A stretch of 21,231 bases of DNA from a virus: positions 1 to 21,231 of the IMG/VR virus record IMGVR_UViG_3300010331_000047. The stretch is one strand, 5' to 3'. This document shows positions 4,510 through 16,947 of this stretch, piece by piece (within the stretch, counting starts at the first letter, position 1; each line of letters begins with the position of its first letter). The notes beneath the pieces are model-generated. The model was given only the letters and a program-made list of their open reading frames with translations, was not told where the DNA came from and searched no databases. The translations under genes were made by a program, and so were the position numbers.

Positions 4510-5490
4510 ATGGAATCAGCAAAAGTTATTAACTTTAGGAATGATGTAGCTGCAATAGCTCGTGAATTTATGGATAAGGGCAATATTACTATGGAGGATT
4601 TTTCAAAGAAGATACACTTTTCTAGAACGGCACTGACACAATATATTTCAGGAAAGTATGGTTCAGACCCAAAGAATATTGAAAAAGCAATTATGGATTA
4701 TTTGGTTCAGGAAGGAGCAGTTGTAACACAAACAGAAAAACCGACAGTTAAAACTTATGCTTCTAAGCCTGAGTTCTTCGCTTCAAGAGATGCAAAAAAC
4801 ATAGTTGCAATATGCCAGTCATGCCAGGAATACAAGGGACTAGGAATTATAGCAGGAAAATCAGGCTATGGAAAGACCTTCACCTTAAAACATTATTCAA
4901 AGATGGATAGAGTCTGCTACATATATTGTGACGATACCATGGGATGCAGAGATTTGGTTGAAGCAATAGAAGATGCTCTTGGAATTCCACAAAAATATGG
5001 TTCTATCACAAAACGTGTCAAAAGTATCAAGAAATTCTTTAGTGTGAATAAGGGATATCTGCTGATTATTGATGAAGCTGACAAACTCCTGAATAAATAT
5101 ACCCAAAAGAAGATGGAAATTCTCAGAACCATATATGATCCTACAGAAAAGGACTCAGATGAATCAGAAGTTGGTCTAGTTATCGCAGGGGAACCAAAGT
5201 TGGAATCAATGATCAAGTCTTATCTTCCAAGGTTTGCAAACAGGGCAGATTTTAACATAAGGCTTGAAGGCTTGACTAAAAAAGAGGTTGAGAAATATCT
5301 TGAAGGCTATAACTTAACCGGGGATGCTCTGAATGAAATGATTTCAAGGGCCACTAACAATCAGACTGGTTGTTTCAGAGTTCTGAACAAAACCCTTAGA
5401 AATATTGTGAGGTTGCAGCCTGATCAAGACCAAGATGTTGAAATTACATTGGATGTAATAAATAAGGCCAGCGGAATGATGATGCTGTAG
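4510..5490 (+). CDS. Transposition target-capture AAA+ ATPase (MuB family)
   Basis: This 326-residue ATPase partners the transposase and selects target DNA. An N-terminal HTH (about 25-65, with FSKKIHFSRTALTQYI) precedes the AAA+ domain, the same order as in MuB. Walker A is GKSGYGKT (Lys122, Thr123) and Walker B is LLIIDEAD (Asp188, Glu189). An ATG at 4495 is five codons upstream and overlaps the transposase stop, but its own GGAGG (4497-4501) is the ribosome binding site for the ATG at 4510, so I chose the latter. The tight coupling to the transposase supports the pairing. Confidence 0.93.
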   Translation: MESAKVINFRNDVAAIAREFMDKGNITMEDFSKKIHFSRTALTQYISGKYGSDPKNIEKAIMDYLVQEGAVVTQTEKPTVKTYASKPEFFASRDAKNIVAICQSCQEYKGLGIIAGKSGYGKTFTLKHYSKMDRVCYIYCDDTMGCRDLVEAIEDALGIPQKYGSITKRVKSIKKFFSVNKGYLLIIDEADKLLNKYTQKKMEILRTIYDPTEKDSDESEVGLVIAGEPKLESMIKSYLPRFANRADFNIRLEGLTKKEVEKYLEGYNLTGDALNEMISRATNNQTGCFRVLNKTLRNIVRLQPDQDQDVEITLDVINKASGMMML

Positions 5491-5506
5491 GAAGGAGAAT
5501 TTGAAT

Positions 5507-5911
5507 ATGCAATTAACATTTATAGATACTGTCAAGTCAGCCATTAATGGCTTTGAGGCTAGCCTTTTCGATAAAGGCACTGCCATAAAAATGATAGAAG
5601 ATTCAGCGCAAGTCAAATGCACAGATTGCAGTGAGAAAAGCACAATAGATTTTAACAATTGCATTATGGATTTGAAACATGCTATGGATGATGAAATAGA
5701 AACAGGTTTATTTGATAAGCTGAGCAATCCTTTGGATGAAATGAGCATTGGCGAGGCGGTTAGACTTTATAACAGTAAAAGTATGCAGCTTCCTTGCAGA
5801 GGTGGGCATATAATTGGGATTTTCCATGAAACAGATAAAATCAAATCAAACTTAACGGAGGTCAGGTATTATGAGCAAAATCAAGAATATTGTGTACAGA
5901 AATTGGGATGA
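5507..5911 (+). CDS. Unknown early protein (134 aa)
   Basis: The ATG at 5507 has GAAGGAGA just upstream; a TTG six bases earlier is less likely. The protein has a CTDC pair near residue 40 and other scattered cysteines, but no complete zinc-binding pattern. I see no membrane segment. The 3' end overlaps the Gam gene by 41 bases in another frame, showing tight packing. The family is not recognised. Its place between MuB and Gam is where Mu-like phages carry variable early genes. Confidence 0.65.
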   Translation: MQLTFIDTVKSAINGFEASLFDKGTAIKMIEDSAQVKCTDCSEKSTIDFNNCIMDLKHAMDDEIETGLFDKLSNPLDEMSIGEAVRLYNSKSMQLPCRGGHIIGIFHETDKIKSNLTEVRYYEQNQEYCVQKLG

Positions 5912-8304: not shown

Positions 8305-8317
8305 GGTGGTGAGGTCA

Positions 8318-8653
8318 TTGAATAGCAACACGAATTTGGCTCATATTATTGAAGAAGACCTTCCTGGGGAGTATGATCTACTTGTTGCTGAAATCGGTAT
8401 AGAAAAGACTTTAAAAGTTGCTAAGATGTTCGGAGGAAGCAGAGTATACTTCCACAAGTATGATACTGTTGAAAAGCCTTTAAGAAATAGGAAAATCAGA
8501 GAGGAATTCAATGGCTATAACTATTCTGAACTTGCCAGGAAGTATAATTTAACTGAGGTATGGATTAGAGAAATTTGTGAAGATATTGTTGAAAAGAAGA
8601 GAGGCAAATCAATAGAAGGACAAATAAATATCTTTGATTGTCAAAGTACTTAA
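8318..8653 (+). CDS. Mor-family transcription activator
   Basis: The 111-residue protein has the Mor/C family layout: an N-terminal dimerisation part (HIIEEDLPGEYDLLVAEIG; then a GGSRVYFHK strand) and a C-terminal HTH (FNGYNYSELARKYNLTEVWI). In Mu, Mor ends the early operon and activates middle transcription; here it also closes the early block. I chose the TTG at 8318 (AAAGGTGG 7-8 bases before it) rather than the GTG at 8306, which would overlap its own ribosome binding site. A terminator follows. Confidence 0.85.
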   Translation: MNSNTNLAHIIEEDLPGEYDLLVAEIGIEKTLKVAKMFGGSRVYFHKYDTVEKPLRNRKIREEFNGYNYSELARKYNLTEVWIREICEDIVEKKRGKSIEGQINIFDCQST

Positions 8654-8691: not shown

Positions 8692-8722
8692 AAAATCCAA
8701 GTATAACAAATACTTGGATTTT
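8692..8722 (+). terminator. Intrinsic terminator closing the early operon
   Basis: AAAATCCAAGTA (8692-8703) pairs perfectly with TACTTGGATTTT (8711-8722) around a 7-base loop. It runs into a T-rich tract (TTTTTTATTTT, 8719-8729). It lies 38 bases after the mor stop codon and about 30 bases before the first late gene. Confidence 0.9.
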
Positions 8723-9138: not shown

Positions 9139-9426
9139 ATGGAAAACTTGAAAATTATTGAGTCCAAGAGACTTAGAGCTCTGATTATTAAAGCGATGTA
9201 TGATGCCTATCCAGGAGCATTGCTGAAAGGAACACTTAAAAGGGCATTTGCAGGAAACTACACTGGAATTGAGGTAGGAAGACAACTTGAATATCTTAAG
9301 GGAAAAGGCTACATAGAAATTGACAATGAAGACGAACCTGATAATGACAATGCTATGGTTAAAGTAACCTCCAAAGGCATAGACCTGATGGAAGAAACAA
9401 TTGAAGATCCAGGAGTTGGATTCTAA
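9139..9426 (+). CDS. Winged-helix phage protein (95 aa)
   Basis: The protein has an N-terminal helical part and then a winged-helix-like pattern (LEYLKGKGYIEIDNE, followed by the strand MVKVTSKGIDLMEE), as in small DNA-binding proteins. It lies between the DUF2730-like gene and the small terminase, where Mu carries gp26. The stop codon overlaps the next start (TAATG). It may help DNA packaging or regulation; the function is inferred from fold and position only. Confidence 0.65.
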   Translation: MENLKIIESKRLRALIIKAMYDAYPGALLKGTLKRAFAGNYTGIEVGRQLEYLKGKGYIEIDNEDEPDNDNAMVKVTSKGIDLMEETIEDPGVGF

Positions 9427-10019
9427 TGGGAGCTGAAAGAGAAAGAACTAGGGTTTGTAGTAAGGTTGACGAGCTTCCAGATGATATAAGGCCCAAGCTT
9501 GATGAGATGCTTGCCAGAACTGGCGAGAACTACCTTAAATATCAAGAGATTGCTGATGAAATCAGTAAAATGGGTTATCCAATAAGCAAGTCATCTATTG
9601 GAAGATATGCATTAAAAAATAATTCGGTTGTTAAGCGTTTGAATGAAGCTCGAAAAAGAACAGAAATGCTATTTGATGCAGTAAAAGACAATCAAGACAT
9701 ACAAGGTACAGAAATTGCAACAGCAATGTTTGTAGATCAGCTAGTACAAAAGATGGCTACAGCAGAAGATGATATTGAAAAGATGCCTATTGAAAAAGCA
9801 GCTCAGCTTATGATTGCAATACAAAGAAGCGCAGTTTACAAAGAAAAGTTCAAGCTTCAATTCAATAAGGGGTATAAAAAAGCCCTTGCAGAGGTTAAAG
9901 AAGAATTCATAAAAGAACTCAAACAAAATGAGCCTGAGCTACTTGAGAGAATAATTGAAGTTGCCAACAGGCTTGAGAAGAAAGTAGTAATGAAAGAAAC
10001 AGGTGATTCTGTTGCGTGA
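9426..10019 (+). CDS. Small terminase subunit, DUF3486 (Mu gp27-like)
   Basis: The 197-residue protein has the DUF3486 pattern. An N-terminal HTH region (LPDDIRPKLDEMLAR, then YQEIADEI and ISKSSIGRYALKNN) recognises DNA, followed by a long helical oligomerisation part. In Mu the equivalent gp27 directly precedes the large terminase. Here a NusG-like gene is inserted between the two subunits. The 3' end overlaps that gene by 8 bases. Confidence 0.82.
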   Translation: MGAERERTRVCSKVDELPDDIRPKLDEMLARTGENYLKYQEIADEISKMGYPISKSSIGRYALKNNSVVKRLNEARKRTEMLFDAVKDNQDIQGTEIATAMFVDQLVQKMATAEDDIEKMPIEKAAQLMIAIQRSAVYKEKFKLQFNKGYKKALAEVKEEFIKELKQNEPELLERIIEVANRLEKKVVMKETGDSVA

Positions 10020-10521
10020 ATGGTATGTATTGCAAGTTAGAACTGGCGAAGAGGCTGCTATCAGGGATTACATAAAAAGAAAATTACCAGGTATTAATGC
10101 TCTGGCACCACAGCGTGAAATGAAAGAACGCAAGGATGGAAAATGGAAAATCAGAATCAGAACATTGTTCAAAGGTTATGTCTTTGTAAACTGTAATATG
10201 GCTGTCGAAGAGTATTACATGCTTAATAACATTACAGGTGTGATAAGTATTTTAAAAGGTGCAGCGTCTTCCCCAACACCAGTTCCAGAAGAAGAAATGT
10301 GCTTTGTTTTAAGGCTAACAAAAGATGATGATTTAGTTGGAATAACAGATATAGTACTTGTGGGTGATAAGGTCAAGGTCGCATCTGGAGTGTTAGAAGG
10401 ATATGAAGGTCAAATTATTAAGGTAGACAAAAGGCATTTCAGGGCAAAGGTTAAGTTCTCTTTGATGGGACAGGAAAAGGTTATTGAGTTAGGAATAAAG
10501 TTAGTTGAAAAAATAGGTTGA
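10012..10521 (+). CDS. NusG paralog of LoaP type (probable late antiterminator)
   Basis: The 169-residue protein has an NGN domain (about 2-95; starts EWYVLQVRTGEE, contains LFKGYVFVNCNM) and a C-terminal KOW domain (about 116-166; VGDKVKVASGVLEGYEGQII). The NGN sequence is closest, in my reading, to the LoaP branch of specialised NusG proteins. LoaP proteins bind RNA polymerase and an RNA hairpin to let transcription pass terminators in long operons. The TTG at 10012 follows AGGTGAT; GTG at 10003 is the alternative. It lies between the terminase subunits and is followed by a structured gap. Confidence 0.85.
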   Translation: MREWYVLQVRTGEEAAIRDYIKRKLPGINALAPQREMKERKDGKWKIRIRTLFKGYVFVNCNMAVEEYYMLNNITGVISILKGAASSPTPVPEEEMCFVLRLTKDDDLVGITDIVLVGDKVKVASGVLEGYEGQIIKVDKRHFRAKVKFSLMGQEKVIELGIKLVEKIG

Positions 10522-10588
10522 AGCTTTTATGTGTTTGATTCGTCGCAGATAAAGGCTCAACGCATTTATATGGCAGATCAATAAAGCT
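10522..10588 (+). other. Possible RNA fold after the NusG-like gene (first element)
   Basis: AGCTTT (10522-10527) can pair with AAAGCT (10583-10588), and TTGAT (10535-10539) with ATCAA (10577-10581). They enclose about 37 bases without a clear inner stem. It is weaker than the following hairpin but lies in the same gene-free stretch. Confidence 0.35.
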
Positions 10589-10590
10589 AG

Positions 10591-10644
10591 GTTGAAAAAC
10601 TTGGATGGCGAAGCTCGCCAATCTATAAAAAAAGTTTTCTCAAC
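10591..10644 (+). promoter_or_regulatory. Two-part RNA hairpin, candidate recognition element for the NusG-like protein
   Basis: The outer stem pairs GTTGA (10591-10595) with TCAAC (10640-10644) and AAAACTT (10596-10602) with AAGTTTT (10632-10638), with C10639 bulged. An inner stem pairs TGGCGA (10606-10611) with TCGCCA (10615-10620) around an AGC loop. An asymmetric internal loop separates them. No T-run follows, so it is not an ordinary terminator. The location immediately after a LoaP-like gene and before the long late operon suggests a binding element. Confidence 0.6.
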
Positions 10645-10694
10645 TATTTTGTCAAAAAAGAGTTCTTTCTTACTCTCTTGTGAGGTGATACATA

Positions 10695-12215
10695 TTGAGC
10701 ATTGTTAAAGAAATTGCTGGGGTTGAAGCTTCAGAAGAAAAAAGAAAATATTATCTTCCATCTCAAAGTTTTTGGGAATACTGCAAGATGCGTTACCCAA
10801 AGCACTTCAAAGAAAGTAGACCCTACCAAAAAAAGATTGCAGACAGCTTTCAAGCTCTCTATGAAAAAAGAATTATAAGATTTAAGCCTAATGAGCCATG
10901 GCAGATAGTAGACTCAACAGAAGGTTTAACTGAATATGAATTTTGTAGAAAGATGAAGCTAAATCTCCCACCTAGACACTATAAGTCTTTTACCGCAACA
11001 TTATTCTCTCAATGGGTTTTCGGTAAAAATAATGAGAATCGCATAATTACAACATCATATAACGAAACTCTATCAGGCCGTTTTGGTAAAGCTGTAAGAG
11101 ATGGTATAGATGAAACAAAGATAGATAATAAAAGAGTAATTTTTAACGACATTTTCCCTGATACTCATATCAAACAAGGTGATGCAGCTAATCAAATATG
11201 GGCATTGGAAGGGCAGTTTTTCAATTACCTCGCCACCTCGTTTAATGGCACTGTTACTGGTGTTGGTTGTAACATTGGTATTATAGATGACCAGATAAAA
11301 ACAGCAGCCGAAGCTCACAATGAAAATCTCTTAGAAAACCATTGGAGTTGGTACACTGATACATTTCTTTCAAGACTTGAGGAAGGTGCTATTCAAATAA
11401 TTATAATGACTCGTTGGTCTAATAATGATATTTGTGGCAGGCTTGAGAAAGAAGAAGAAGCTAATGAATGGTACGAGCTTCGGATGAAGGCTTGCATAAA
11501 TGAAGAATCTCAGGAAATGCTCTGCGAGGAGGTATTTTCATTTGCTTCCTATAAGTCAAAAAAGAAGCTTATGTCAGCTGAGATTTTTGATGCTAACTAT
11601 CAGCAGGAGCCAGTGGATGCAAAGGGTAAGCTCTACTCTACTTTTAAAACCTATACCGATTTGCCAAGGGATGAAAAAGGAAATTTGATATATGAGAAAA
11701 TAATAGCTTATGGTGATACTGCAGATGAAGGAGCTGATAAGCTTTGCACCTTGGCAGCAGTTATGTGGAAAGGTGAAGGCTGGATAATTGATATCTATTA
11801 CTCTGGTGATGGTATGGAAGTGACTGAACCTGCAACAGCGGAAATGCTAGTGAAAAACAATGTCAACCTTGCAAAAATCGAAAGTAATAACGGTGGTAGA
11901 GGGTTTGCCAGAAACGTCGAAAGACTTATATGGGAAAAGTTCAAGACCAAGAAAGTAAAAATAGATTGGTTTCACCAGTCAGCAAACAAGATATCAAGGA
12001 TACTTTCAAACAGTACATTTGTCATGGAGCATTTATACTTCCCTTGGAATTGGCGCGACAGATGGCCTGAGTATTACAAGGATATGAATAGCTTCCAGCG
12101 TGAAGGCAAGAACAAACACGATGATGCTCCTGATGCTACTACAGGAATTGGTGAAATGATTCAAGGAAATATGAAAAAGGCGAAAAAGCCTCGGAAAAAG
12201 CCTAAAGGATGGTGA
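10695..12215 (+). CDS. Large terminase subunit (DNA packaging ATPase and nuclease, Mu gp28-like)
   Basis: The 506-residue packaging motor has an ATPase half with a variant Walker A, PPRHYKS (Lys97), and Walker B, IGIIDDQ (Asp198, Asp199). The nuclease half has acidic residues Asp341 (AYGDTADEG) and Asp476, Asp477 and Asp480 (HDDAPDA). The C-terminus is very basic. The start is TTG, six bases after GAGGTGAT (10682-10689). Tyrosine replaces the usual glycine in the Walker A position before lysine. It is followed by the portal gene after 5 bases. Confidence 0.92.
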   Translation: MSIVKEIAGVEASEEKRKYYLPSQSFWEYCKMRYPKHFKESRPYQKKIADSFQALYEKRIIRFKPNEPWQIVDSTEGLTEYEFCRKMKLNLPPRHYKSFTATLFSQWVFGKNNENRIITTSYNETLSGRFGKAVRDGIDETKIDNKRVIFNDIFPDTHIKQGDAANQIWALEGQFFNYLATSFNGTVTGVGCNIGIIDDQIKTAAEAHNENLLENHWSWYTDTFLSRLEEGAIQIIIMTRWSNNDICGRLEKEEEANEWYELRMKACINEESQEMLCEEVFSFASYKSKKKLMSAEIFDANYQQEPVDAKGKLYSTFKTYTDLPRDEKGNLIYEKIIAYGDTADEGADKLCTLAAVMWKGEGWIIDIYYSGDGMEVTEPATAEMLVKNNVNLAKIESNNGGRGFARNVERLIWEKFKTKKVKIDWFHQSANKISRILSNSTFVMEHLYFPWNWRDRWPEYYKDMNSFQREGKNKHDDAPDATTGIGEMIQGNMKKAKKPRKKPKGW

Positions 12216-16689: not shown

Positions 16690-16938
16690 GTGTATACATT
16701 ACAGAAATTAAATGTTGTTAAGATAGTCGATACTGAGCTTAAAAAGGATGAGCTTATTTCCAAAGGCTTCACCTTAGTACAAGCTCAGGAGAAAGCTTCA
16801 AGTAATGAAAAACCTCTGAATAAAATGAATCTTGAGGAGCTGAAGGAGTATACAGCTCTGAAAGAAATAGACATAACAGGATTGACAAAGAAAGATGAAA
16901 TCATGGCAAAAATAAAGGAGATTGAGCAGGGTAAATAA
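16690..16938 (+). CDS. Small head protein with a Rho-N/HeH-like domain (82 aa)
   Basis: The start is GTG behind AAGGAGGT, directly after the capsid gene. The C-terminal part (LNKMNLEELKEYTALKEIDITGLTKKDEI, about 43-77) resembles the small Rho N-terminal/HeH helical domain that often occurs in short phage proteins after the capsid gene. These are thought to bind nucleic acid or act in head completion. The stop codon lies inside the loop of a hairpin. Confidence 0.65.
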   Translation: MYTLQKLNVVKIVDTELKKDELISKGFTLVQAQEKASSNEKPLNKMNLEELKEYTALKEIDITGLTKKDEIMAKIKEIEQGK

Positions 16939-16947
16939 ACCCTGCTC
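16924..16947 (+). terminator. Terminator-like hairpin after the capsid block
   Basis: GAGCAGGGT (16924-16932) pairs perfectly with ACCCTGCTC (16939-16947) around a 6-base loop that contains the stop codon. A mixed pyrimidine tract (CTCTTCTATTTT) follows, so termination may be partial. Confidence 0.55.

Follow-up and report, generated by a model that had tools for sequence, protein, structure and literature searches.

The specialized regulators closest to the system described here include: (i) LoaP of Bacillus velezensis and Thermoanaerobacter (NF033641; PDB 8f5g), (ii) RfaH, a NusG paralog that reads non-template DNA at the ops pause and refolds, and (iii) the phage processive antitermination systems lambda N/nut, lambda Q and HK022 put, of which N and put use nascent RNA. 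In B. velezensis, the dfn leader contains a UNCG hairpin, upstream of a terminator, which is bound by LoaP and which LoaP needs in order to antagonize NusA-stimulated termination (PMC12691694). Residues E40, R41 and I143 recognize the hairpin, and mutating any of them lowers antibiotic output; a pause between the hairpin and the terminator also helps LoaP (PMC12691694). The ops element of RfaH has the sequence GGCGGTAGCGTG, and its role in pausing is described (PMC5995543, PMC7819879). Pause sites in general follow a consensus of the form G-10 Y-1 G+1. A further relative is an orphan RNA family of Rfam, RAGATH-28 (RF03052), for which no function, and indeed no mention, is found in the literature searched. 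For a sister orphan, RAGATH-18, later work established a function as the guide RNA of IS607 TnpB (PMC11061315).

The locus examined here lies in a virus record of 21,231 bases (IMGVR_UViG_3300010331_000047), which is analysed over its full length and is termed the window. The window has a Mu-like layout in which genes for a Mu transposase, a B-like AAA transposition protein and a Mor activator are followed by gp27, a NusG-like gene, terL, a portal gene and a minor capsid protein gene. The first-pass annotation, made from sequence alone, had called the phage Mu-like, and the recovery of the transposase, AAA protein, Mor and gp27 upholds that call. The phage is assigned to the Mu-like viruses of Firmicutes (Bacillota). 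The Mor-family activator (8306-8653, + strand; PF08765, 1.9e-15) is immediately followed by a strong terminator-like hairpin (8692-8722, +), which suggests that the late transcript begins 3' of that hairpin. The Mu gp27-type terminase small subunit (9426-10019, +; PF11985, 7e-29; PHROG 426 'terminase small subunit') is directly upstream of the NusG-like gene, here named loaP (10012-10521, +). The terminase large subunit gene terL (10695-12215, +; PHROG 30251, 2e-154) begins after a gap of 174 nt and is the proposed first member of the late genes predicted to be antiterminated, an activity that is untested.

The loaP frame is complete (9994-10521 from stop to stop), with candidate starts at GTG 10003 or TTG 10012, the latter overlapping the stop codon of gp27. 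The NGN domain is detected by Pfam (PF02357, 3.8e-20), the KOW match is weak, and the AlphaFold2 model consists of an NGN domain and a beta-barrel KOW domain with a mean pLDDT of 90.4. Thus, the claim that a complete NGN plus KOW protein is encoded between the terminase genes holds, on the basis of the intact frame, the Pfam match, the predicted fold and the gp27 and terL flanks. The protein scores 172.3 bits against the NCBIfam model of LoaP (NF033641, cut-off 125). Membership is not met for housekeeping NusG (75.3 bits against the TIGR00922 cut-off of 135.7), RfaH (49.5 bits against a cut-off of 144.5) or UpxY (72 bits, under the cut-off). A maximum-likelihood tree of 63 proteins places the window protein inside a LoaP clade (support 97/86), together with chromosomal LoaPs and with a LoaP encoded on a plasmid beside the malonyltransferase gene fabD. 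Housekeeping NusG groups apart in a clade of its own (98/84), and RfaH of Escherichia coli, with a long branch to itself, falls outside the LoaP clade. The best structural match to the model is 8f5g, a 'NusG-RNA complex', of which three chains give TM scores to the query of 0.78-0.88, compared to 0.6 or less for any NusG or RfaH structure.

Membership of the LoaP branch is thereby shown by profile score, tree and predicted fold. The first-pass annotation had proposed this branch without computing a placement and had called for a tree; both the tree and the 8f5g match bear the proposal out, with the protein outside housekeeping NusG. The similarity to B. velezensis LoaP extends to the KERKDG segment of the window protein, which aligns at the E40/R41 position of LoaP homologs and retains the ER pair. 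The equivalence of this pair to the RNA-binding E40/R41 residues is inferred from the alignment, as is the numbering, and the counterpart of I143 is unresolved. The window copy differs from the B. velezensis and Thermoanaerobacter systems in that it is phage-borne, resides between terminase genes and has its RNA 3' of loaP.

Between loaP and terL is a structured RNA element (10516-10620, +) that had been missed in the first-pass annotation. The 174-nt gap folds better than shuffled sequences (z -2.3), and the element is built of two hairpins and a tail. Helix P0 (10517-10561, +; strands 10517-10521/10557-10561, GUUGA/UCAAC) overlaps the loaP stop codon with its 5' strand and encloses the P1 hairpin (10523-10556, +), which carries a UU bulge (10535-10536) and a UUCG tetraloop (10539-10542). 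The resulting GA-UUCG-UC apex with its bulge (10535-10544) is conserved and covarying, and is of the UNCG type that LoaP binds in polyketide leaders. A small hairpin, P2 (10587-10604, +), lies just before a conserved tail, AUGGCGAAGC-UCG (10605-10617, +). Complementarity exceeds that of a cross-sequence permutation for P0 (z=7.1), P1 (z=14.1) and P2 (z=5.3), and P0 and P2 are further supported by folding and by compensatory changes. Relatives have at the same spot a stem, a pyrimidine bulge, two pairs and a UNCG-type loop (e.g., UUGA-UUCG-UC, CUGA-CUCG-UC and UGU-UUCG-GC), followed by a small hairpin and by AUGGCGAAGC with hardly any variation. In 35 copies the covariation score is 0.411, compared to 0.188 when shuffled and at most 0.175 when slid, and compensatory changes are noted in 17 of 18 base pairs. 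The conserved RNA structure is thus established. The leader of fabD, beside the plasmid loaP, has the same P0-P1 form (AUGAC/GUCAU, CGAUGUUUCGGCACG, UGU-UUCG-GCA) and no tail; P2 and the ops-like tail are extra features of the phage RNA in that neither is seen in this one polyketide-type leader examined.

Several other pairings were considered. A helix P3, between the segment after P0 and bases 3' of the tail, is suggested by three loci and rejected as not general (z=-0.4); pairing of alignment columns 58-74 with bases 3' of the tail gives z=3.4. The P1 loop and the tail, a conceivable direct pair, are both nearly invariant. A hairpin at 10590-10645 could be an overlapping terminator, but its pairing is in competition with that of P2 and its U tract is poor. 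Variants of the element are also observed: one genome (G294) has two tandem RNA copies about 165 nt apart after a single LoaP-like gene (L175/L178), and in two loci (L024 and L031) the P1 hairpin after loaP is kept and the GGCGAAGC tail is lost or degenerate, providing a natural tail-less variant.

The phage RNA is a relative, not a curated member, of RAGATH-28. The window has no Rfam match at the gathering threshold; RF03052 aligns to 10529-10614 with 35.3 bits (E 1.1e-4), under the gathering score of 45.3, and this score is passed by the relatives L011 (46.9) and G294 (49.3). The alignment covers the full model (1-85) and preserves the order of hairpin, P2 and AUGGCGAAGC tail. Common to both RNAs are the GGUUGAUUCGUCC hairpin, the spacer, P2 and the tail. 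By contrast, helix P0 and the nested UNCG pairs of the phage RNA are absent from the Rfam model. A covariance model built here, R1, gives the window 66.8 bits; since the training set of R1 includes the window as well as many phage loci, scores at those loci are not independent.

The loaP gene occupies the same slot across Mu-like phages of Bacillota, as a survey called for in the first-pass annotation bears out. Two TerL relatives (L004 and L005) carry loaP between gp27 and terL at 43-48% identity, and in three gut phages (L011, L014 and L015) it is directly 3' of gp27. Among further divergent loci, the upstream neighbor is gp27 in 10 of 10, and the downstream long gene is the terminase large subunit in 10 of 10 of a largely overlapping set. 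The order gp27, loaP, RNA, terL is kept in all of the ten divergent loci checked, and the position of loaP before terL is thus shown. In four other TerL relatives (L006-L009) loaP is not detectable, nor is there any trace of the RNA. The proteobacterial Sinorhizobium phage phi3LM21 (L012) has a different NusG-like protein (4845-5513) two genes before the terminase, without the RNA. Some loaP-bearing phages also encode self-cleaving RNAs: type-P1 twister ribozymes just under the gathering score (L011:887-945 and L014:45-103) and a type II hammerhead (L004:478-544, - strand). These fit the name RAGATH (RNAs associated with genes associated with twister and hammerhead).

The position of loaP and its RNA bears on the possibility that a captured regulator is at work here, with host operons as the main targets of the protein and the RNA a relic. 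This account draws on the LoaP regulators studied so far, which serve host biosynthesis operons (PMC12691694). It is considered very unlikely, as the position and the RNA persist across divergent phages at about 27-50% protein identity.

The RNA and LoaP are linked in searches from either direction. An RNA-only pattern (TTGATTCGTC-N(40-70)-ATGGCGAAGC) finds 26 matches in viral contigs, 22 of them preceded on the same strand by loaP at a distance of 18-295 nt, and 40 matches in 257 Gb of genomes, where loaP is upstream in 20, all of Bacillota. The remaining matches (4 viral and 20 genomic) lack a neighboring LoaP, and P1 pairs poorly in most of them; they are judged to be chance, of which about 14 cases are expected in the genomes (20 fixed bases, 29 spacings). 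Some of the records counted are near-duplicates, and loci found by the pattern contain the tail by construction. Two further tests are free of this constraint. From the protein alone, the tail is within 350 nt downstream in 28 of 33 non-redundant LoaP loci (>=120 bits), compared to 1 of 20 more distant NusG-type proteins. In an unselected set of 299 genomes, RF03052 occurs in three, each with a LoaP-like gene directly upstream (3/3), one of these being the genome on which the set was centred. The linkage of RNA to LoaP is thus shown.

Chromosomal copies found with R1 lie upstream of loaP (L139 and L154) or after it (L153), the matches in L154 and L153 being weak (E about 0.1). For some chromosomal LoaP genes, a distance of 1.5 kb is free of such an RNA. 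RNAs of like architecture are also noted directly before DUF4351 or Transposase_31 (Rpn-like) genes (L181:1501-1628, L182:373-499, L183:1501-1627 on the - strand, and L184), in genomes that encode a chromosomal LoaP distant from these copies. Under a strict filter, distant copies occur in 2 of 7 genomes with a LoaP over the cut-off and in 0 of 292 others, an overlap that is small, yet unlikely by chance. The phage RNA is very likely the docking or loading site of LoaP, though binding data are lacking.

An alternative is that the element is a DNA or packaging signal (pac, bound by the terminase small subunit) tied to loaP by location only. In its favor, the element lies between terminase genes and is followed in relatives by repeated CGTTTAAA-like motifs. 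Against it, the compensatory base-pair changes indicate selection at the RNA level, related RNAs reside in chromosomal LoaP leaders without a terminase, and the TerL relatives that lack loaP also lack the element. The packaging explanation is therefore held to be very unlikely. The CGTTTAAA-like motifs themselves recur within 150 nt after the tail in six loci, often spaced about 10 or 20 bp, at a density of 6.1 per kb compared to 0.16 elsewhere, and are not seen by eye in the shorter loaP-terL gap of the window. They may be an array bound by a protein, for instance a pac site for the terminase small subunit or a site for an activator.

The tail has the form GGCGNAGC-NYR; among 66 copies, 57 have the Y and 54 the R. 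Apart from one missing base it resembles ops (GGCGGTAGCGTG), and it matches the pause consensus as G-10 Y-1 R+1, with P2 about 11-12 nt upstream. That the tail pauses polymerase is inferred, as is any reading of the DNA. A strong intrinsic terminator within 500 nt after the tail is found in 33 of 64 tail-bearing loci, compared to 5.8 expected, and terminator enrichment in the relatives is thus established. The order of hairpin, tail, terminator and operon in these loci resembles a LoaP leader. In the window, no clear intrinsic terminator is detected between the RNA and terL; thus, the read-through targets of its LoaP would lie further downstream. A terminator-like hairpin inside the late gene cluster (16924-16947, +) is a possible target, but only a candidate, since such sites are no commoner in the window than in shuffles.

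It is likely, in the absence of binding or transcription data, that LoaP loads on polymerase at the RNA and drives late-gene transcription through terminators. In the mechanism proposed, the phage would supply both a processive antiterminator of the LoaP type and the site at which it loads. A transcript from upstream, probably started by the Mor activator (a role that is inferred) and kept going by LoaP, would extend through gp27 and loaP. Polymerase leaving loaP would generate the P0-P1 hairpin, with its bulge and UNCG loop, to be bound by LoaP. About 60-70 nt later, the P2 hairpin and ops-like tail would pause polymerase and give LoaP time to dock. LoaP would then remain on polymerase and carry it past terminators located ahead of terL or among the late genes. 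Binding of the RNA by LoaP, pausing and antitermination are each inferred.

A different role is conceivable in which the RNA is an autoregulatory or attenuation element, with LoaP binding acting on the expression of loaP or terL, through translation or mRNA stability, and not on processivity. The RNA touches the loaP stop codon and sits just before terL, and terminators follow it in half of the loci. This explanation is nonetheless unlikely, as the published LoaP mechanism is antitermination (PMC12691694), and chromosomal copies in leaders upstream of loaP and before unrelated genes fit a loading site better.

The loading-site model compares with the known systems as follows. Like RfaH, the window LoaP is a specialized NusG paralog with a pause-like site (GGCG-N-AGC-NYR); it differs in its score and tree position, in a KOW domain modelled as a beta-barrel and in an RNA hairpin site. 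With lambda N/nut, lambda Q and HK022 put it shares phage processive antitermination as the proposed role, but the proteins and sites are unrelated, the window system being a NusG paralog with a LoaP-type RNA. The late-gene processivity role suggested in the first-pass annotation has indirect support only, from the adjacent LoaP-type RNA and the terminators in relatives. The comparison made there to lambda Q is loose because Q loads at a promoter, whereas the window LoaP has an RNA loading site; chromosomal LoaP, or lambda N with nut, is closer. A bolder reading, which we entertain without favoring it, is that RAGATH-28 and related RNAs recruit LoaP through a bipartite site, in which a capture hairpin is joined to a hairpin-and-consensus pause and the NGN domain would read the GGCGNAGC core on the non-template strand as RfaH reads ops. 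If this reading is true, two NusG paralogs share one recruitment grammar, and phages were carriers of a LoaP-RNA module.

What this analysis adds is the RNA. It is related to an orphan Rfam family, and a broad group of Bacillota Mu-like phages carries it together with LoaP. An orphan RNA is now tied to a specific protein partner and a proposed mechanism, giving RAGATH-28-like RNA a testable job, and further LoaP targets can be sought with the covariance model. With the ops-like tail, it becomes possible to ask whether an RNA hairpin is enough for LoaP or whether a pause and contact with DNA are needed too. LoaP, known from antibiotic and polysaccharide clusters, would also control late genes in phages of a widespread group.
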